14,251 nt of DNA from contig DGOD01000135.1 of NCBI GenBank assembly GCA_002389265.1, forward strand, positions 1,433 through 15,683, given 5' to 3'. Both the position numbers and the translations under genes were made by a program. A model generated the notes under the pieces. The model saw only the letters and a program-made list of their open reading frames with translations. It did no database searches and had not been told where the DNA came from. Source of the DNA: Gammaproteobacteria bacterium UBA4475 (GTDB taxonomy: Bacteria; Pseudomonadota; Gammaproteobacteria; Pseudomonadales; Azotimanducaceae). How positions within the stretch are numbered: the first letter of the stretch is position 1; every line of letters begins with the position of its first letter. Shown here piece by piece: positions 7,016 through 14,251 of this stretch.

Positions 7016-7522
7016 ATGGAGTTTGGTATTGTTTTCATCGCGATTTTGATCGCGATTGTGGCTGTTTTTATATTTTACAAAATGAAGGCTGAAAAGCCCG
7101 GGGCTGAGCCGGTAGACGAGTCAGTTGGGTCTGACCCCGTTGAGGATCTACTGAGTCTCAACTTGGATGTGCGTAAATCCTCTATGCCGGCGAATTTGGT
7201 TGAAATGACCGAGGAGTTGATTGATCTGATCGTCGATCTACTGCCGTTGGTGCGAGAGCAGGCGTCAGCGTCGGGCGAGTTGACGTGGACCGTTAACCGT
7301 ATCTCTAGTGAATATTTACCGAATAAATGTGTCTACCCCTTCATCAAGCTTGATAAAAAACTGCAAAATGACGCGGCCATTGTCTCCTCTTATAAAGACA
7401 ACATTGATGCGCTCAAAGATGAACTCGTCGCCGTCAAGGCGATGGTCGTTAATCGTGATATCCAACAGTTCAACGCTAAGGCGAAATTTCTAAAAAATCG
7501 TTTTGATAACACAGGAGCCTAA
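7016..7522 (+). CDS. Small membrane-anchored helical protein, possibly XpaC-like partner of TelA
   Basis: The 168-residue protein has a single N-terminal membrane segment (about 3-21) followed by a Pro/Glu-rich linker (25-45) and a helical cytoplasmic region (60-165) rich in charged heptads. I do not recognise it with certainty. The stretch ISSEYLPNKCVYPFIKLD (96-113) recalls the YYLP...Y core of XpaC proteins, which in Firmicutes are encoded next to a TelA homologue (xpaC-yaaN). That neighbourhood is reproduced here, with the TelA gene only 3 bases downstream. If this reading is right it is a short, single-helix version of XpaC. Its role would be to anchor or regulate TelA at the inner membrane. 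It has a good ribosome binding site and opens the operon. The CDS is sure; the XpaC relationship is a guess. Confidence 0.8.
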   Translation: MEFGIVFIAILIAIVAVFIFYKMKAEKPGAEPVDESVGSDPVEDLLSLNLDVRKSSMPANLVEMTEELIDLIVDLLPLVREQASASGELTWTVNRISSEYLPNKCVYPFIKLDKKLQNDAAIVSSYKDNIDALKDELVAVKAMVVNRDIQQFNAKAKFLKNRFDNTGA

Positions 7523-7525
7523 CAA

Positions 7526-8674
7526 ATGACTACTGAAGTAACTCCACCAAAGTGGGCCTTAGAAAAAGACTTGTCAACATTGAAAGATCGTACATTGGCT
7601 TTGGTTCAGTCAACCAAAGAAAAGTCTGGTCCGGCGCTGAGTCGTATCGTTGCCGGTATCGGCGAGGCGTCGCAGAAGAAAATGTCCTCCGCTAACGATC
7701 TGATGGCTGGCAGCGTTGGCACGCTGTTGAAAGGACTTGATGGTAAATCGCCAACCGGTGAAAAGCTGCTAGAGCTTCGTTCGGCGATGGATGATTTGAA
7801 TCCGCACTCGCTAAGCAACTCGTGGTGGTTCGCCTGGATGCCGAAAGGTGTCAAGCGCAAAGCGATTTCTCGGTTTATTAATCGCTATCAGCCGATGCAG
7901 GCCCATTTAAATGGAATTTTTGATGGTTTGCGCAATGGCAAAGATGAATTACTGGAAACCAGCATTGCCTTAGAAGAGCAGTACGACGAAATAGCGGCAG
8001 CCAAGAAAGAAATGGAAGCGGAAATTTATGTGGGCGAACTATTTATAAAACAAGTGGAAGAGCTTGAGGCTGTTGTTGATACAGATCCTCGCGAGCTGCA
8101 GAAGTTAGGCGCAGTCAAAAATCAAGCCATGCGCCGTATTCGAGATATTCGAACGATGGAGCAGGCTGCAGTGCAGTTTTTTATTAGCATTGATCAAACA
8201 GTCGCGACTAACAGTCTGCTAGGTGAGCAAATTGATAGTGCCTTAGTTGTTGGGCCAATGGTTATGAGTAACGCGTTGCGCATCCAAGCAGCGTTGGCAC
8301 AACAAGACAGCGTCCGCGAGGCGGTGGAGAGTGTACAGAATGCAATGGGCGACATGATGGCTCAAAACGCCGCTGCGGTTAATCAAGCCGCACAGAAAGT
8401 CGGTGATATGTATAACAACCCAGTGATAGGACTCGAGAAGCTCGAGGAAGGCTTTGACCAATTAATGCAGGCGGTCAACACGGCCAATGCGACAATAGCC
8501 ACCAGTACGATCAAAGCGCGAGAAACCAGTGATCGTCTCGCCCAAATGACTGCAGAGCTCGAGCCGGTGGCTGCCGGCATGCGCGACGCTCGTGCCGAAG
8601 GCGCTGCGCAAGAGCCGGTTCTGTCTTTGGAGAATGGGAAATCTGAGGCGGCTGTTAGAGGTTCTAATGACTGA
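7526..8674 (+). CDS. TelA/KlaA family (toxic anion resistance) protein
   Basis: The 382-residue, mostly helical soluble protein fits the TelA family (PF05816; Bacillus YaaN, plasmid KlaA/TelA). Recognisable pieces are a conserved ...RFINRYQPMQAHLNGIF segment (116-132), the GKDELLETSIALEEQY stretch (138-153; compare GKDELLxDNxxIE in YaaN), the tDPRELQKLGAVK (186-198), RIRDIRTMEQAAVQFF (204-219), and the C-terminal helix VIGLEKLEEGFDQLMQAV (300-317) with ATSTIKARETSDRL. Long coiled-coil helices dominate 130-180 and 260-345. TelA proteins are tied to tellurite and other membrane-directed stresses, but their biochemical activity is unknown. AGGAG at 7513-7517 precedes the ATG by 8 bases. It sits where a PspA-like protein is found in related DUF350/spermidine-synthase loci. 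The last 8 bases overlap the DUF4178 gene. Confidence 0.85.
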   Translation: MTTEVTPPKWALEKDLSTLKDRTLALVQSTKEKSGPALSRIVAGIGEASQKKMSSANDLMAGSVGTLLKGLDGKSPTGEKLLELRSAMDDLNPHSLSNSWWFAWMPKGVKRKAISRFINRYQPMQAHLNGIFDGLRNGKDELLETSIALEEQYDEIAAAKKEMEAEIYVGELFIKQVEELEAVVDTDPRELQKLGAVKNQAMRRIRDIRTMEQAAVQFFISIDQTVATNSLLGEQIDSALVVGPMVMSNALRIQAALAQQDSVREAVESVQNAMGDMMAQNAAAVNQAAQKVGDMYNNPVIGLEKLEEGFDQLMQAVNTANATIATSTIKARETSDRLAQMTAELEPVAAGMRDARAEGAAQEPVLSLENGKSEAAVRGSND

Positions 8675-9302
8675 TTACAGGCAACGGTTTGATGCTATCC
8701 GGGGACTGTCAATGCACTCTGTTGGCGACCGACCTAAGGTCGATATCACAGCCGTCAAGCAAGGCGGCTATATTGAATTTGGCGGCGATTCTTTTCAAGT
8801 TGTGAAGCTCAATCGCTATCTTGAGGTGAAATGGGAGGACTTCTCTAAACTAAAAAAAGACTACTGGGTTACAGAACTGCTGCTACTAAATCTTTTGACA
8901 GGGGAATCTGCAACTATCGAGTGGGAAGTCGATGACGAGTTAGAGCTTAGTGTGACGATTGAAAGAGTATCTTTGAGCGATCTCAGCTTTCAGGGTAAGC
9001 GCCTCAAGTACTCTGACTTGGAAGACATCGCTGAGGAGGAGGAAGGGGTTGTCAGCCTCAAGGGTACCAAATTTCATTACGAAGAGGACGATACCTGGGC
9101 CGCGCTTTATTACGACGAGAATGCCAGCGATCATCAGCAGGTGCGCATGATGGAGTTCAGTGGTGGAGGTAATAAAAGCCTCACGGTCGAGCTTTGGGAA
9201 GATGAAGGCGCTAAGCCCGACAAGGAGGCGTTTCTGAGCGAAGACCTTAAGCCCTCTGCCGTGAAAGTGTTGCAAGCAGGGATCGCTAGCGAGGTGAGCT
9301 AA
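8667..9302 (+). CDS. DUF4178 domain protein
   Basis: The 211-residue acidic, soluble, beta-rich protein resembles DUF4178: an N-terminal GGYIEFGGDSFQVVKL strand pair (33-48), a mid portion with LLNLLTGESATIEWEV, then KGTKFHYEEDD (132-142), a MMEFSGGGNKSLTVELW block (161-177) and a closing Glu/Asp-rich tail. In DUF4178 proteins the shape is similarly a small beta domain ending in a wLsiE.W-like strand. No catalytic motif is visible and there is no signal peptide. I chose the ATG at 8667 because AGAGG (8657-8661) precedes it by 5 bases; the open frame extends back to an ATG at 8592, but that would bury 25 more codons inside telA. It overlaps TelA by 8 bases and its TAA shares one base with the next ATG (9302). 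DUF4178 genes recur next to DUF350 and spermidine-synthase-like genes, which supports the call. Confidence 0.72.
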   Translation: MTDYRQRFDAIRGLSMHSVGDRPKVDITAVKQGGYIEFGGDSFQVVKLNRYLEVKWEDFSKLKKDYWVTELLLLNLLTGESATIEWEVDDELELSVTIERVSLSDLSFQGKRLKYSDLEDIAEEEEGVVSLKGTKFHYEEDDTWAALYYDENASDHQQVRMMEFSGGGNKSLTVELWEDEGAKPDKEAFLSEDLKPSAVKVLQAGIASEVS

Positions 9303-10978
9303 TGAGATATTTAAAGCCAGCAGCGCTCTTTTTCGTTGTATTGTTTGTGGGTTATTTCAGCTACAAGATATTGACGCAGCTACCGGCGAGAAATTTTGAA
9401 GATGCTCAGGCGTTTATTCAGTCTTTGGATCGACAGCAAAAGTCACTGATCATTGACCAAGGCAAGTTTTCTGAATTGATGCAGTCCGATGCTTGGGGCT
9501 TGCTTAGCCCCTATGCTGCATCTGGCAATTGGGCTGCGGAATTCACCTCTGCTGAGGCGGATCTAGCAAAAGCAGAAAAGATAAAAACTGACGTTGTTGA
9601 TCGTATTCTAGAACGAGATCACGAAGATGACGTTGCTGAGCTTGTCGCCGGCATTACAAAAGGTGTTGAGCTCATTCGCTCAGCAAAACTAGCTTCAGCT
9701 TACCCCCTGCGGCGGGCCGAACTTATTCTCGAAGCCGTAGAGAACAAGGCTGTATATTTTCAAGGCGCCGAAGCCTTAATCGATGCTGTTGATCAATCGG
9801 CAGTGCAATTCAAGCTAAAAATTGATCTGTCGTTGGCTGCTCATCCTGCTAAAAATGCTGATATTAAAGACAAGGAAAAGGCTTTTTTTGAACTAGTGGA
9901 TGCTGGCAGTTCAGCGTTCGCAGCTATGCGTGCGGAATATCGATCGGCCGCGATTAATTATGCGCATTTCATCGATAGTTATGCTGATTTAAAAACCGCG
10001 CATCAAAGCGCGCTAAGCTTTGCTGAAGAAAATTCTGCACTGCTGGCACAGCTAGATAGAAGCTATGTAAAAATATTGGTTGATCAGCAGATTGACTATT
10101 ATCTCGTGATCTCGCGGGCGAGTTGGTGTGATGGCGAGTACTGCGGTTCGGGTTCCGAAATGAATTATCCTGCGGTCAAAGTTGATGAGGATACCTTTGA
10201 ATATTTTGAGAGTAATGATGTCTCGGTAATAGCTCGGCATTCCACAAGTTTTGGTGGTGGTCGATTATCATTGTTGATTCCTCAGCAACGCTGGGATGCA
10301 CTGGGTATTGATTATCAATACCGTTGGGATCGTCGTCAGCCTAGTGCCGAGTACTGGGTCGATTCAGCTGTTATCAAGACGCTGCACAAATATGCCTATA
10401 TAGAAGCAGTTAGTGCAAGCTCAAGCCAAGATGTCAGCGGCGAAGTCAAAGAGCAAGACTGGGAGCCAGTTAGTGAAGCGGTTTTTTGGAAACACTACGA
10501 GCACCTTGGCATGGCGATAGAGACCAAACCCTTCGGCTTTTATGCGTCAGAGTTAATTGATACGGCCGAGCCTGTGGGGATGGCAAGCATTGCTACTCCG
10601 ACCATGGTCAATGGCGTTCCAACGGGATCAAATCAGCAAGGTGAATGGCGCCAAGGCAGCGGCGGTTCATTTTTCTATTTCTATGGAATGTATCGGTTGT
10701 TCTCCGACTTTGGCTATCAACGACGCTATACACATAATGATTGGCGGCAATATAACGCCAATGGTCGCTCTTCAGCATTTTATGGAAGTAATCGACAGTA
10801 CGGTACTTATGGGTCAGCGACTTACAGTGGCACAAGGTACGCCAATAGTAACTTCGGAAGAAGTAATCCATCGGTCTTAAACAGTGCTGTAAGCGGTGGA
10901 GGATCAGGAATAGGACGCTCAATACGAGGTGCGGGGCCTTTCGGTCGAGGTAAGGGCCCTTCAGGTTCCGGCAAATAA
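9302..10978 (+). CDS. Large membrane-anchored envelope protein with Gly/Tyr/Ser/Arg-rich tail
   Basis: I do not recognise a named family. The 558-residue protein has an N-terminal signal-anchor (about 5-23), then a long helical, coiled-coil-prone region (30-260), then a mixed region with the only two cysteines (C276, C281, in SWCDGEYC) and many Trp/Tyr residues (265-420). The C-terminal 115 residues are low-complexity and rich in Gly, Tyr, Ser, Asn and Arg (GSNRQYGTYG, FGRSNPS, ending GPFGRGKGPSGSGK), with FFYFYGMYRLFSDF (457-470) before it. Such a layout suggests an inner-membrane-anchored protein with most of its mass in the periplasm and a flexible, aggregation-prone tail; this is inference. 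It starts in the shared TAATG with DUF4178 and is followed by the DUF350 gene. Its tail resembles tails I associate with uncharacterised proteins of spermidine-synthase/DUF350 loci, from memory only. Confidence 0.85.
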   Translation: MRYLKPAALFFVVLFVGYFSYKILTQLPARNFEDAQAFIQSLDRQQKSLIIDQGKFSELMQSDAWGLLSPYAASGNWAAEFTSAEADLAKAEKIKTDVVDRILERDHEDDVAELVAGITKGVELIRSAKLASAYPLRRAELILEAVENKAVYFQGAEALIDAVDQSAVQFKLKIDLSLAAHPAKNADIKDKEKAFFELVDAGSSAFAAMRAEYRSAAINYAHFIDSYADLKTAHQSALSFAEENSALLAQLDRSYVKILVDQQIDYYLVISRASWCDGEYCGSGSEMNYPAVKVDEDTFEYFESNDVSVIARHSTSFGGGRLSLLIPQQRWDALGIDYQYRWDRRQPSAEYWVDSAVIKTLHKYAYIEAVSASSSQDVSGEVKEQDWEPVSEAVFWKHYEHLGMAIETKPFGFYASELIDTAEPVGMASIATPTMVNGVPTGSNQQGEWRQGSGGSFFYFYGMYRLFSDFGYQRRYTHNDWRQYNANGRSSAFYGSNRQYGTYGSATYSGTRYANSNFGRSNPSVLNSAVSGGGSGIGRSIRGAGPFGRGKGPSGSGK

Positions 10979-10986
10979 AAGTATAT

Positions 10987-10992
10987 AGGTGA
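10987..10992 (+). promoter_or_regulatory. Ribosome binding site fixing the DUF350 start at ATG 10997
   Basis: AGGTGA lies 4 bases before the ATG at 10997. The adjacent in-frame TTG at 10994 would leave only one base between site and start codon, so it is disfavoured. Confidence 0.7.
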
Positions 10993-10996
10993 TTTG

Positions 10997-11848
10997 ATGA
11001 ATATAGAGCAGTACGGAATTTACATTTTATATACGCTCATTTATGTGGTGCTGGCAGTTGTGTTGAAGTACGCGCTCAACTTCAGGTCATTGTCAGACTA
11101 CAATGCCGATGAGCAACTCGCCGGCGGTAATCTGGCAGTAGGCTTGCGCAGAACGGGCGCGCAGTTTGGATTAGCTATTGCTGTGACGGGTGTGCTGAGT
11201 AGTAGTGGTGCAGACGATTTGCTAGCTGATTTGTTCAACACTGCGTCGTATGGCTTCATCGCTGTTGTTTTCATGTTGAGTTCGTTGCTCATCACTGATC
11301 GGTTAGTGTTGCCGGGAGTTAATAATCAAGAGTCGCTTAAGCAGGGCAACGTAGCAGTGGGCTTTGTCGAGTTTGGGATGTTAGTGGCAACAGGCATTGT
11401 CGCCTATTCGAGCATGGTGGGTGAAGGTGGCGGAATGTTGTCTAGTCTTTCATATTTTATTGCTGGTCAGATTACCTTGGTTGCACTAGTCATTGTTTAC
11501 GAAAAAATATTTGTCAGAAATTTTGATATCGTCGAAGCCATAGGAAATAACAATATTGCATCGGGTATTTATCTCGGCGGAAAAATGATCGCTTACTCTT
11601 TGATTTTAAAGAGTGCCATTGCCGGCAATGGTACAAGTGAGCTTCCGGTGGACTTAGCCCTTGAGTTTTTAGCTGTAGCTGCGCTGGGCATGATCTTTTT
11701 GTATCTATTTGAGTCTATTCTTGACCGCTTGATCGTCACTTCGGCAAACTTATCATCTATGCTTAACAAAGATAGTATCGTGCCAGCAGTGCAGTTGGCT
11801 TCGGCAAAAATAGGTATCGCCCTGATTTTAAGCAATGCAATACTCTAG
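10997..11848 (+). CDS. Duplicated DUF350 (YjfL-like, UPF0719) membrane protein
   Basis: The 283-residue protein has about eight membrane segments and an internal duplication: each half is a DUF350 unit of four helices. Every unit carries the small-residue motif following a polar loop: GNLAVG (44-49), GNVAVG (117-122), NNIASG (185-190), and a degenerate IVPAVQLASA (261-270). The ends of the halves show charged hinges such as DRLVLPG (101-107) and DRLIVTS (243-249). DUF350 proteins are integral inner-membrane proteins of unknown activity, represented by YjfL of E. coli in the yjfIJKLMC operon. Here it lies between the tailed envelope protein and the spermidine-synthase-like enzyme. The ribosome binding site and ATG at 10997 are preferred over the TTG at 10994. 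Confidence 0.9.
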   Translation: MNIEQYGIYILYTLIYVVLAVVLKYALNFRSLSDYNADEQLAGGNLAVGLRRTGAQFGLAIAVTGVLSSSGADDLLADLFNTASYGFIAVVFMLSSLLITDRLVLPGVNNQESLKQGNVAVGFVEFGMLVATGIVAYSSMVGEGGGMLSSLSYFIAGQITLVALVIVYEKIFVRNFDIVEAIGNNNIASGIYLGGKMIAYSLILKSAIAGNGTSELPVDLALEFLAVAALGMIFLYLFESILDRLIVTSANLSSMLNKDSIVPAVQLASAKIGIALILSNAIL

Positions 11849-11881
11849 CCCGGTTTGCGTGATAGAAACTAGGACGCAAGC

Positions 11882-13549
11882 ATGAAAACGGCCCGGCTAT
11901 TGCCGGTACTGCTCGCGTTTTGCATGTTTTCAACAGGCGCTAGTGGCCTGGTCAGTGAGTATCTGTTAGCGACGATTACCACCTACATTCTTGGTAACTC
12001 TATCGAGCAATTTTCGCTAGTGATAGCCAGCATGATGCTCATGATGGGTGTTTCCGGTTTTGTTCAAAGCAAAATGACAGATCGGAATCTGTTGCAAAAA
12101 TTTATTGCTGTAGAAGTGTTAATGGCGTTGCTGGGTGGTTTTGCGCCGTTGGCCATATATGCGTCTTATGGTTATTTAGATCACTACTTTACGATCATTC
12201 ACTACGGTTTTGTTTTGTCCATCGGTTTTCTGATCGGTTTTGAAATTCCGCTGGTGATGCGGATTATTGAGAAACAAAATATTCCACTGAAAACGAATCT
12301 GACTATCGTCTATGCAATGGATTATGTGGGTGCATTTGTCGGCGCACTTATCTGGGTGAATTATCTGCTGAAGAATTTTCCGCTGTCTGAAATCAGTTTC
12401 ATTGTTGCCGGATTTAATTTCATTGTTGCTGTCATTACAATACTGTACTTCCTTTATGTCAAAGTAATAGATCGCCCGGCCATGCAAATACTAGCGCTGC
12501 TCTTGACGGCCGCCGCACTGCTGTTTGGTTGGGCTAATAACAGGGATTTTAGCGCATTATTAGAGCAAAAATTTTACGACGACCCTATCGTTTACAAGAA
12601 GACCACAAGATACCAGCATCTTGTGATGACACATAATTCAAAAATCGATGACACGCGTTTGTATATTAACGGCAATACTCAGTTCTCTTCCTTAGATGAG
12701 GGGCGCTACCATGATTTTCTTGTACATCCAGTAATGACTGTCGCGCCAGCCATAAAGCATGTGCTGGTGTTGGGTGGTGGTGATGGGCTTGCGCTTCGAG
12801 AAGTCATCAAATACGCAGAGGTGGAATCTGTGACGCTGGTAGACCTTGATCCTGAAATGATCAATATCGCGACGAATAATCAGATATTAACCGCCTTGAA
12901 TAACCATGCTTTTCAGCATGCTAAAGTGAATGTGGAGTCGATCAACACTTATGTCGCAGGTTCAAAACAAGCCATTTATATGCGTGAGGTGGGCTACGAA
13001 GCCGGCGAGCGAGAGTGGGTGGCTAGTGTCGAAGTGTTTAATATTGATGCTGACCAATTTTTAAAAAAACAGCCGAAACAAAAATGGGATGCGGTAGTGA
13101 TAGACCTGCCAGACCCATCGTCGATTGAGTTGAGCAAACTTTATAGCAAACAATTTTATCAGTCATTACGGCGTTACTTGACAGCGGATGCCTACGTGGC
13201 CATTCAATCAACTTCTCCGTATCACGCAAAAGAGGCCTACCTGTCTATTGGTGAAACATTAAAGGCAGCAGGGTTCAAAGTTTTGCCCTACAGGCAGAAC
13301 ATACCGTCCTTCGGTGATTGGGGCTATTACCTTGCGTGGATCGGTACACGGAGTTCAGAGGCGGTTAAATTACAGCTTTCTGCCTTGCCTGAGTTCAAGG
13401 TTGATACGGATTTTATAACGCCTGAATTGTTGGCGGCATCCTTTGCGTTTGGTAAAGGCGAATTGGTGGCTGATAATCCCTGTGTGAATACACTCATGCA
13501 ACCCTGTCTGTTGACGAATTATTTGGACAGGAGTTGGTTGCTAGAATGA
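11882..13549 (+). CDS. Membrane-embedded spermidine-synthase-like aminopropyltransferase homologue
   Basis: The 555-residue protein has about seven N-terminal membrane helices (8-218) followed by a spermidine-synthase-like methyltransferase-fold domain (240-490). Visible motifs are YQHLV (244-248), an LYINGNTQFSSLDEGRYHDF stretch corresponding to the substrate-gate LDGxxQ...DExxYHE, VLVLGGGDG (294-302) for the nucleotide, VDLDPEMI (320-327), and IDLPDPSS (407-414) with the LYSKQFY helix after it. The family transfers the aminopropyl group of decarboxylated S-adenosylmethionine to putrescine or an analogue; in the membrane-fused branch the real acceptor is not settled. An insert of about 36 residues (around 347-388) lies between the nucleotide Asp and the IDLPDP strand. 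AGGAC is 7 bases upstream of the ATG. Its stop overlaps the channel start by ATGA (13546-13549). Confidence 0.88.
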   Translation: MKTARLLPVLLAFCMFSTGASGLVSEYLLATITTYILGNSIEQFSLVIASMMLMMGVSGFVQSKMTDRNLLQKFIAVEVLMALLGGFAPLAIYASYGYLDHYFTIIHYGFVLSIGFLIGFEIPLVMRIIEKQNIPLKTNLTIVYAMDYVGAFVGALIWVNYLLKNFPLSEISFIVAGFNFIVAVITILYFLYVKVIDRPAMQILALLLTAAALLFGWANNRDFSALLEQKFYDDPIVYKKTTRYQHLVMTHNSKIDDTRLYINGNTQFSSLDEGRYHDFLVHPVMTVAPAIKHVLVLGGGDGLALREVIKYAEVESVTLVDLDPEMINIATNNQILTALNNHAFQHAKVNVESINTYVAGSKQAIYMREVGYEAGEREWVASVEVFNIDADQFLKKQPKQKWDAVVIDLPDPSSIELSKLYSKQFYQSLRRYLTADAYVAIQSTSPYHAKEAYLSIGETLKAAGFKVLPYRQNIPSFGDWGYYLAWIGTRSSEAVKLQLSALPEFKVDTDFITPELLAASFAFGKGELVADNPCVNTLMQPCLLTNYLDRSWLLE

Positions 13550-14235
13550 TATTGAGTTTCATCTTGCGCGGCTATAAGAAAGTGCTTTCTCGAGTGCATG
13601 AATATGCTTGGGTTACCTTGTTTGTATCAATCGCGCTGCTGTATGTGCTGAGTTGTTTTGTCATGTTTTTTGCCGCCGAGGATCAGATTTTTGAAAAGTA
13701 CACTTGGTGGTTATCGGTCACTATAACGACGGTTGGTTACGGTGATTATTCGCCATTAACAACCTATGGGCGGGTCTGTGCCGGGGTCATCATGTTCATT
13801 GGCATCGGTACAGCAGGCCTGGTGATCGGCAAGGCGGCTGAGTCGGTTATTGATTTTGTGAACAAAAACAGGAAAGGTTTGAGGAAGATGAGTCATGCAA
13901 AACATACCGCCATCATGGGCTACCGACAGGGACGCACTGAAAAAGTCATTGCGGAACTGCTGAGTAATAATCCTGCAGAAAAGCAGGTTCTTTGCTCTTT
14001 TGGTCAAAAAGAAAACCCAATTCGGTTTGATATTCCCCCGGGTAATGTTGCGGTTGATTCGCTAATGGTATTTACACGGATGAAGAAAAAGTATGGCGCC
14101 ACAGTACTCGCGGTTAAGGATAGCCACGTGACGCTCAACCCTGAGCTTCTCTTGACCGTCAAATCGGGCATGGCGCTGTTCTATGCTGCTCTCACAAGAC
14201 TTGTAGACATAGACCTTGCTGGTCTTGAGGTGTAG
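13546..14235 (+). CDS. Two-helix potassium channel with shortened RCK/TrkA-like domain
   Basis: The 229-residue protein has a first membrane helix (about 21-42), a pore loop with the potassium selectivity filter TTVGYGD (61-67), and a second helix (76-98) with GIGTAGLVIG, followed by a charged linker (104-118) and a cytoplasmic domain. That domain starts with a Rossmann-like strand HTAIMGYRQGRTEKVIAELL (120-139), as in RCK domains, then reaches the end-of-domain block with LNPELLLTVKSGMALFYAALTRL (197-219) after only about 60 residues. A usual RCK is about 120-140 residues, so the middle of the fold appears missing. It should still form a K+-selective tetramer, possibly with altered ligand gating (inference). 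The ATG at 13546 overlaps the previous stop and has AGGAG 12 bases upstream; the in-frame TTG at 13534 directly abuts AGGAG and is unlikely to be used. Confidence 0.9.
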   Translation: MILSFILRGYKKVLSRVHEYAWVTLFVSIALLYVLSCFVMFFAAEDQIFEKYTWWLSVTITTVGYGDYSPLTTYGRVCAGVIMFIGIGTAGLVIGKAAESVIDFVNKNRKGLRKMSHAKHTAIMGYRQGRTEKVIAELLSNNPAEKQVLCSFGQKENPIRFDIPPGNVAVDSLMVFTRMKKKYGATVLAVKDSHVTLNPELLLTVKSGMALFYAALTRLVDIDLAGLEV

Positions 14236-14237
14236 CC

Positions 14238-14251
14238 GTGAACCAGCGATC
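14238..14251 (+). CDS. Start of a further operon gene (truncated by window end)
   Basis: Two bases after the channel stop a GTG (14238-14240) follows GAGG (14227-14230) at 7 bases and opens a frame MNQR that runs off the window. The spacing fits this operon. The product cannot be named from four codons; a SpeD-type S-adenosylmethionine decarboxylase would make sense by context but is not shown. Confidence 0.35.

Follow-up and report, generated by a model that had tools for sequence, protein, structure and literature searches.

Bacteria are known to carry an operon type in which a CesT/Tir-PspA pair is encoded together with a membrane spermidine synthase, a DUF350 protein, a DUF4178 protein and a lipoprotein of the Ctha_1186 type (Ravi et al. 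2024, PMC11237479, section 19, second group). The word 'tela' has 0 occurrences in the main text of that paper, and its section 19 makes no mention of a Gly-Lys end. Here we analyse a stretch of DNA of 14,251 nucleotides, hereafter the window, from Gammaproteobacteria bacterium UBA4475 (GenBank assembly GCA_002389265.1, contig DGOD01000135.1, positions 1,433 to 15,683 of the forward strand), whose genes from position 7016 onwards are, judged by sequence, a TelA variant of this CesT/PspA polyamine operon. The window shares with the published operon the DUF4178 protein, the DUF350 protein, a SpeE enzyme fused to seven transmembrane (TM) helices (NF002956, 568 bits) and a tailed envelope protein (env). 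It differs in lacking the CesT-PspA dyad and in having a pair formed by a 168-residue protein, p168, and TelA.

An earlier note on this DNA had seen kinship with PspA- and YjfL-type polyamine loci. The kinship is supported, although the published relative is the membrane-SpeE operon and not yjfIJKLMC. The Escherichia coli yjfIJKLMC and ygiBC operons resemble the window in encoding a polyamine enzyme, a tailed lipoprotein with a hydrophobic stretch and a Ser/Arg/Gly-rich tail and, in yjf only, a DUF350 protein. They differ from it in that the polyamine enzyme is an ATP-grasp ligase instead of SpeE/SpeD, the tail ends in Gly-Gly where that of the window ends in Gly-Lys, and DUF1190 and (in yjf) DUF2491 proteins are found instead of env and DUF4178.

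In Firmicutes, XpaC-TelA is an envelope-stress dyad. Overproduction of membrane proteins in Lactococcus lactis raises xpaC 10-fold and telA1 3-fold, values tabulated with the CesSR regulon, and growth under these conditions is partly impaired when both xpaC and telA1 are deleted (PMC3139573). The sigma-W regulon of Bacillus subtilis includes both xpaC-yaaN and pspA (PMC3498285), a liaR mutant of Enterococcus faecium has xpaC up 7-fold (PMC10269926), and in Listeria a telA mutant shows 4-fold sensitivity to nisin and 2-fold sensitivity to tellurite (Collins 2010, as cited in PMC12791056). In such dyads (B. subtilis xpaC-yaaN, L. lactis llmg_1115/telA1, Listeria lmo1966-1967), as in the window, TelA comes directly after a TM-anchored helical protein. 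The difference lies in p168, which is without most of the N-terminal TM part of XpaC, matches XpaC weakly and has no PF10112 hit of its own. To our knowledge, no Firmicute XpaC-TelA dyad is found with SpeE. Within the open-licence (CC0, CC BY and CC BY-SA) papers of PubMed Central, we found no TelA in a polyamine operon and no Gly-Lys end.

Gene order and exchange of the TelA and PspA pairs

The genes of the operon lie on the + strand of the window:

7016..7522, +: p168 (168 aa, gene 1), without a Pfam match of its own; helices in an AlphaFold2 model; the partner of TelA
7526..8674, +: TelA (PF05816, Pfam 4e-41), holding the position of PspA in the sister operon type
8667..9302, +: soluble DUF4178 protein (PF13785, Pfam 1.3e-7)
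9302..10978, +: envelope protein env (558 aa) with N-terminal membrane anchor, helical body, Ser/Arg/Gly-rich tail and Gly-Lys-stop
10970..10975, +: terminal Gly-Lys codons, GGC AAA and then TAA, the proposed acceptor site
10997..11848, +: double DUF350 (PF03994), a YjfL-type membrane protein (Pfam 1e-41, two stretches)
11882..13549, +: membrane SpeE, with an aminopropyltransferase domain after seven TM helices (NF002956, cut-off 472 bits)
13546..14235, +: K+ channel of 229 aa (Ion_trans_2, PF07885, 1e-13), most of the RCK part lost in frame
14238..14251, +: start (GTG) of speD, S-adenosylmethionine (AdoMet) decarboxylase, cut by the window end (PF02675, E 5e-23 just past the window on the same contig)

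The seven same-strand genes over 7016-14235 are all present, with the gaps of 3, -8, -1, 18, 33 and -4 bases that the earlier note had given. The speD gene adds an eighth; it starts 2 bases after the channel stop and continues beyond the window in the same contig, and the sister genome L042 (L numbers denote loci of our set) has an intact speD at the same place, with a 4-base overlap with the channel gene. The note had called the operon TelA-led; TelA is there, but gene 1 encodes the membrane-anchored p168. Neither p168 nor env matched any Pfam family up to E 0.1. The nearest upstream genes (photolyase, DUF3429) are on the opposite strand. Promoter-like sites in the window are at the level of shuffled sequence (13 vs 10.8), and none of the terminator-like sites (14 vs 7.4 shuffled, both strands pooled) was judged convincing. 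The ratio of nonsynonymous to synonymous substitution (dN/dS) between the window and L042 is 0.03 for TelA, 0.05 for SpeE, 0.16 for env and 0.23 for p168; by this measure, purifying selection is strong on TelA and SpeE. The locus reads as an eight-gene bacterial membrane-stress operon with the p168-TelA pair where a PspA pair normally sits.

The search for related loci used SpeE as the anchor. Membrane SpeE above the family cut-off occurs in 10 of 140 class genomes (own included), and a scan of the genome collection confirmed at least 564 of at least 589 membrane SpeE candidates, the best 80 of which were kept. With ten 16-20 kb regions from the class search (one from the own genome) and the window itself, these make up an annotated set of 91 sequences. 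Annotation relied on profiles built for the analysis, and since the env profile also drew in a PspA, labels were assigned by best score only. TelA is present in 39 of the 91 sequences. Of these 39 TelA loci, 25, the window included (Gammaproteobacteria, Desulfobacterota), have the order p168-TelA-DUF4178-env-DUF350-SpeE, which speaks against a chance arrangement, supports one co-linear unit and shows that the neighbourhood is conserved beyond this genome; the earlier note had held that its absence elsewhere would speak against the operon. Five further TelA loci (L052, L055, L056, L061 and L085, including Gemmatimonadota and Acidobacteriota) have an extra gene before env, presumably DUF2617 by resemblance, and the remaining ones are cut by contig ends, permuted or otherwise incomplete. 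An extra gene, mostly of about 160-230 aa, precedes env or DUF350 in L052, L054, L055, L056, L057, L061, L065, L069, L085, L087, L093 and L094.

In Desulforapulum (L118) the halves of the operon are permuted to env-DUF350-SpeE-p168-TelA-DUF4178-SpeD, and a 604-kb plasmid of Alteromonas mediterranea carries SpeE-SpeD-p168-TelA-DUF4178-env-DUF350. This entire TelA operon (L203, plasmid pAMCP48-600, 7944-14602) is located downstream of a DNA cytosine methyltransferase gene. The unit may be mobile. In Desulfatibacillum alkenivorans (L054, 5652-11665) DUF4178 directly follows p168, and the operon is complete except for TelA. Across the annotated loci it is the polyamine genes that stay constant in the unit. 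The channel comes closely after SpeE in 8 of 39 TelA loci and SpeD belongs to the unit in 6 of 39 (own, L042, L045, L048, L050 and L118), so both are optional; L044 and the Alteromonas plasmid also have SpeD in the unit. Of the 18 PspA loci, 7 have SpeD and 13 a K+ channel. In the class the operon is sporadic, since a close TelA was found only in the own genome among 370 class genomes, the other 37 matches being 16-25% identical. The own genome has one TelA match.

Among 85 loci with SpeE longer than 400 aa, TelA is present in 37, PspA in 18, neither in 30 (many cut short) and both in none. PspA is accompanied by CesT in 18 of 18 loci and TelA by p168 in 35 of 39, the exceptions being L046, L086 and L087, where TelA is at a contig edge, and L033, which has a full XpaC. 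No cross-pairing of TelA with CesT or of PspA with p168 was found among the annotated loci; p168 occurs without TelA in L054 and L094, and CesT without PspA in L108. The cleanest comparison is L113 (Myxococcota), with the order CesT-PspA-DUF4178-env-DUF350-SpeE, which relates to the window by a near-exact dyad swap, and DUF4178 comes after TelA or PspA in both operon types. The proposal that TelA stands in for PspA is thereby borne out, and the swap, as the gene orders indicate, concerns the two-gene dyad, p168-TelA for CesT-PspA. A SpeE tree (quick LG+G4 with long-branch warnings, support of the dividing branch 61) requires one change between the TelA and PspA types (shuffled mean 15.5, 0/500 as low), and one old exchange is therefore the simplest reading. 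Repeated swaps, which were also considered, do not show in the tree. The aligned loci point to a conserved unit in which p168-TelA replaces CesT-PspA beside DUF4178, env, DUF350 and membrane SpeE, with the channel and SpeD in part of the loci. On these sequence comparisons, we regard both the operon and the dyad swap as secure.

Mutual exclusion of TelA and PspA holds at the locus, where none of the 85 SpeE loci has both, and is rejected genome-wide. PspA is carried by 22 of 35 searched genomes and, when only genomes with a visible TelA in the locus are counted, by 21 of 33; this search left out the TelA loci L033, L056, L057, L062 and L087, and included L044, which is cut before TelA, and L054, which is without it. 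The own genome has two PspA genes. One contig has an NtrC-type regulator and a pspABC-like set and another has a separate CesT-PspA-RHH set with a rhomboid-like gene after it (C325 and C70; L134 and L135), the names pspB, pspC, CesT-PspA-RHH and rhomboid-like being our reading of the encoded proteins. Neither SpeE nor DUF350 was found on these contigs, of which the CesT-PspA-RHH contig is 10.6 kb long. The earlier interpretation stands as regards the unit, the replacement of PspA by TelA and the polyamine-locus kinship; the exclusivity that the note had asked about does not extend across the genome.

The Gly-Lys end of the envelope protein

The end of env is the best clue to the chemistry of the operon. 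Gly-Lys-stop terminates 72 of 72 labelled envelope proteins, a set that includes near relatives such as those of the window and L042: 54/54 of type 1 (the window family) and 18/18 of type 2, from Verrucomicrobiota, Calditrichota and others. Without their last 110 residues, the two types have no detectable homology to each other, and all eight GGN-AAR codon pairs and all three stop codons are used among the 72 proteins. The other open reading frames (ORFs) of these loci, counted from 150 aa upwards, end in Gly-Lys in 6 of 997 cases. Three of these 6 encode proteins that received no label but have a similar tail; in L034 and L036 they immediately precede SpeE, and in L053 the SpeE contig is short. 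The end is found in 30 of 31 database homologues, the exception being a 308-aa hybrid frame. A family-blind scan located a same-strand ORF with a Ser/Arg/Gly/Lys-rich Gly-Lys tail within 6 kb of SpeE in 74 of 93 loci, the next commonest end dipeptides occurring in 3 loci each. Around soluble-type (below-cut-off) SpeE such a tail was seen in 0 of 20 loci; for membrane SpeE, over the same distance of 1.5 kb, the figure is 64 of 86. The constant Gly-Lys end of SpeE-linked envelope proteins appears to be new in this analysis.

Type 1 proteins mostly have a lipobox-like site (45/54) and seldom a TM anchor (8/54), while the figures for type 2 are 2/18 and 14/18. The window env has a TM anchor and no lipobox cysteine; env and the PspA-type lipoproteins match one profile, the same that also drew a PspA. 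In two distant Gammaproteobacteria (L034, 7617-8198; L036, 10641-11279) another kind of small lipoprotein, ending ...SRGK, is encoded immediately before membrane SpeE, and the gene preceding it looks like an acetyltransferase. Unlabelled Gly-Lys-ending ORFs also lie before membrane SpeE on an Ensifer plasmid (L204, 7702-7938) and a Gemmatirosa plasmid (L206, 6223-7680); none was found at the other four plasmid loci without the TelA operon (L205, L207, L208 and L209).

A mirror image is offered by the DUF1190 operons. A Gly-Gly end is found on the DUF1190 tailed lipoproteins of 32 out of 32 loci (the 30 best of 71 positive genomes, many from two families, and two others), and likewise on E. coli YjfM and YgiB. 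An ATP-grasp ligase is encoded within the 1.5-kb flanks in 30 of the 32 loci and SpeE in none, and tblastn with YjfC and YgiC, named peptide-spermidine ligases in RefSeq, detected an ATP-grasp ligase in 0 of 97 SpeE loci; the scanned window genes likewise include none. An amide ligase requires a carboxyl end and an aminopropyltransferase requires an amine. As each tail end, Gly-Lys or Gly-Gly, offers what the neighbouring enzyme needs, we infer that SpeE aminopropylates the terminal lysine.

SpeE, p168 and the K+ channel

Seven TM helices are predicted before the enzyme domain in 80 of 85 SpeE proteins. The mean number of Lys and Arg residues per loop is 2.6, 0.4, 2.6, 0.1, 2.9, 0.2 and 2.9, and this strong positive-inside alternation predicts an N terminus inside and an enzyme domain outside. 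The catalytic motifs GGGDG (85/85) and DxPDP (84/85) are kept.

The AlphaFold2 model of p168 (mean predicted local distance difference test, pLDDT, 83.8) has helices at residues 4-23, 41-54, 59-82, 88-110, 114-117, 120-145 and 149-166. The protein is predicted to span the membrane once, with a TM helix at its N terminus, and to place a helical bundle on the cytosolic side. Comparison of p168 with the PDB by profile and by fold gave nothing convincing, nor did that of TelA and XpaC with PDB sequences. In the class sample, XpaC genes above the cut-off adjoin TelA in 8 of 8 cases. At L033 (G039:C13, 6333-8418) a full XpaC-TelA dyad adjoins DUF350-membrane SpeE; this locus may connect the dyad of the Firmicute type with the operon type of the window. 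Large proteins with zinc-ribbon-like Cys pairs adjoin the membrane SpeE genes of L033 and L032.

The only Pfam family above the cut-off in the window channel (229 aa) is Ion_trans_2. The L042 channel has 351 aa, and the window gene is without 348 nucleotides (116 codons) of the RCK part, lost in frame between short similar sequences. A 97% identical 229-aa protein represents a cluster of 84 sequences, and an 81% identical 347-aa protein a cluster of 20. Since the 229-aa form represents 84 members, the loss is probably a real lineage trait, and an assembly error is less likely; the 116-codon deletion (window 13546-14235) is apparently fixed in a lineage. What the earlier note called an RCK-type K+ channel is a K+ channel and RCK by descent, with most of the RCK part gone.

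Proposed pathway and alternatives

An envelope-stress role of the operon is likely, and the sensing of membrane damage, by analogy, fits the published work on Firmicute XpaC-TelA. In the pathway that we propose, membrane damage would recruit TelA to p168 at the inner membrane face, as PspA is recruited. SpeD would produce decarboxylated AdoMet (dcAdoMet), and membrane SpeE, with its catalytic domain predicted outside, would add aminopropyl groups to the terminal Lys of the Ser/Arg/Gly-rich env tail. The polyamine-tipped tail could bind and shield anionic membrane or lipopolysaccharide. Transport of the donor or product through the membrane would fall to DUF350, the 7-TM part of SpeE or both. 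With enzyme and tail both outside, it is dcAdoMet that would have to be carried out, and these two are the candidates; otherwise, modification of the tail could precede its export. The channel would adjust the potential. In E. coli, YgiC/YjfC would arrive at a comparable product through different chemistry, joining spermidine to the Gly-Gly carboxyl end. Diatom silaffins have polyamine-modified lysines in Ser/Lys/Gly-rich peptides; the analogy, aminopropyl units on Lys of a low-complexity basic protein, is in the proposed chemistry only. Aminopropylation of the terminal lysine, a candidate acceptor, is plausible rather than probable. That the locus is the TelA version of polyamine-linked PspA envelope-stress operons, with SpeE modifying the terminal Lys of env, has in our view nearly even prospects.

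Several observations weigh against this pathway. By the blind scan, the Gly-Lys tail is absent in 19 of 93 SpeE loci; of these, L077 and L085 hold a labelled Gly-Lys protein, and in several SpeE is near a contig end. A TM-like hydrophobic stretch precedes the tail in 26/54 type 1 and 7/18 type 2 proteins and would place the basic tail in the cytosol, opposite the predicted SpeE domain. The side of the membrane that holds the tail is thus uncertain, and the modified tail is itself a prediction. We know of no export signal for SpeD, and dcAdoMet would therefore need to cross the membrane. SpeD is not part of the unit in most TelA loci, yet occurs somewhere in 31 of 36 searched genomes. The Gly-Lys and Gly-Gly ends may each have arisen once, and independent switches are thus unsupported. 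On the TelA side, XpaC and the shorter p168 may be related, but the link is weak: PF10112 is matched by 4 of 36 p168 homologues (best E 1.1e-5; two other families also match 4 each, with weaker E), and hhalign of p168 against XpaC gives a probability of 28% and E 6e-4. The TelA model, poor at a mean pLDDT of 61.9, was compared with the PDB for an ESCRT-III/PspA-like fold and gave no match at E<=0.001. Finally, the SpeE pocket looks near-canonical, and plain spermidine synthesis is therefore possible.

This last point leads to an alternative in which SpeD and membrane SpeE make free spermidine or another polyamine at the membrane, perhaps exported, and the free polyamine protects the envelope under TelA control while the tail stays unmodified. 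SpeE retains the motifs for dcAdoMet binding and for catalysis, and it can be aligned with solved spermidine synthases. Moreover, the own genome (89.7% complete) has no canonical soluble SpeE among the matches listed (4 of 5), and the sole AdoMet decarboxylase found in it is that of the window operon. However, of the 10 class genomes that carry membrane SpeE, at least 6 contain a soluble-type SpeE match as well (in one case stop-interrupted), and free polyamine leaves unexplained a constant Gly-Lys end that is seen in 0 of 20 loci near soluble-type SpeE; we consider this alternative unlikely. The end could instead be a recognition tag for something else, such as a carboxypeptidase, a transpeptidase-like cell-wall link or docking to SpeE/DUF350, as two constant residues behind a variable tail are also typical of docking or processing tags. 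The parallel Gly-Gly end beside a spermidine ligase better fits the chemistry of the neighbouring enzyme, however, and among the named families sought no peptidase or transpeptidase is a constant neighbour; we regard a tag as quite improbable.

The name of TelA suggests a cassette for tellurite or toxic-anion resistance and K+ homeostasis. In favour of this are the Pfam name and the 2-fold tellurite sensitivity of the Listeria telA mutant, but the same mutant is 4-fold sensitive to nisin (both as cited in PMC12791056). In addition, no other tellurite-resistance family is among the Pfam matches of the scanned window genes, and the constant part of the unit consists of polyamine genes; such a cassette is most improbable.

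Conclusions

The terminal-lysine pathway can be extended to a wider picture, which is possible if somewhat doubtful. A widespread bacterial system would build a polyamine on the C terminus of an envelope protein in two forms, one with SpeD and 7-TM SpeE acting on the amine of a Gly-Lys end and the other with YgiC/YjfC acting on the carboxylate of a Gly-Gly end, run by an interchangeable TelA or PspA dyad. The findings bear on the role of the polyamine genes in PspA-type loci and on what DUF350, DUF1190 and the tailed lipoproteins do. The constant ends, Gly-Lys for the aminopropyltransferase and Gly-Gly for the spermidine ligase, yield a directly testable prediction at a single residue. TelA, a protein named for tellurite, occupies the operonic position of PspA, and would join the general membrane-stress proteins of Gram-negative bacteria.

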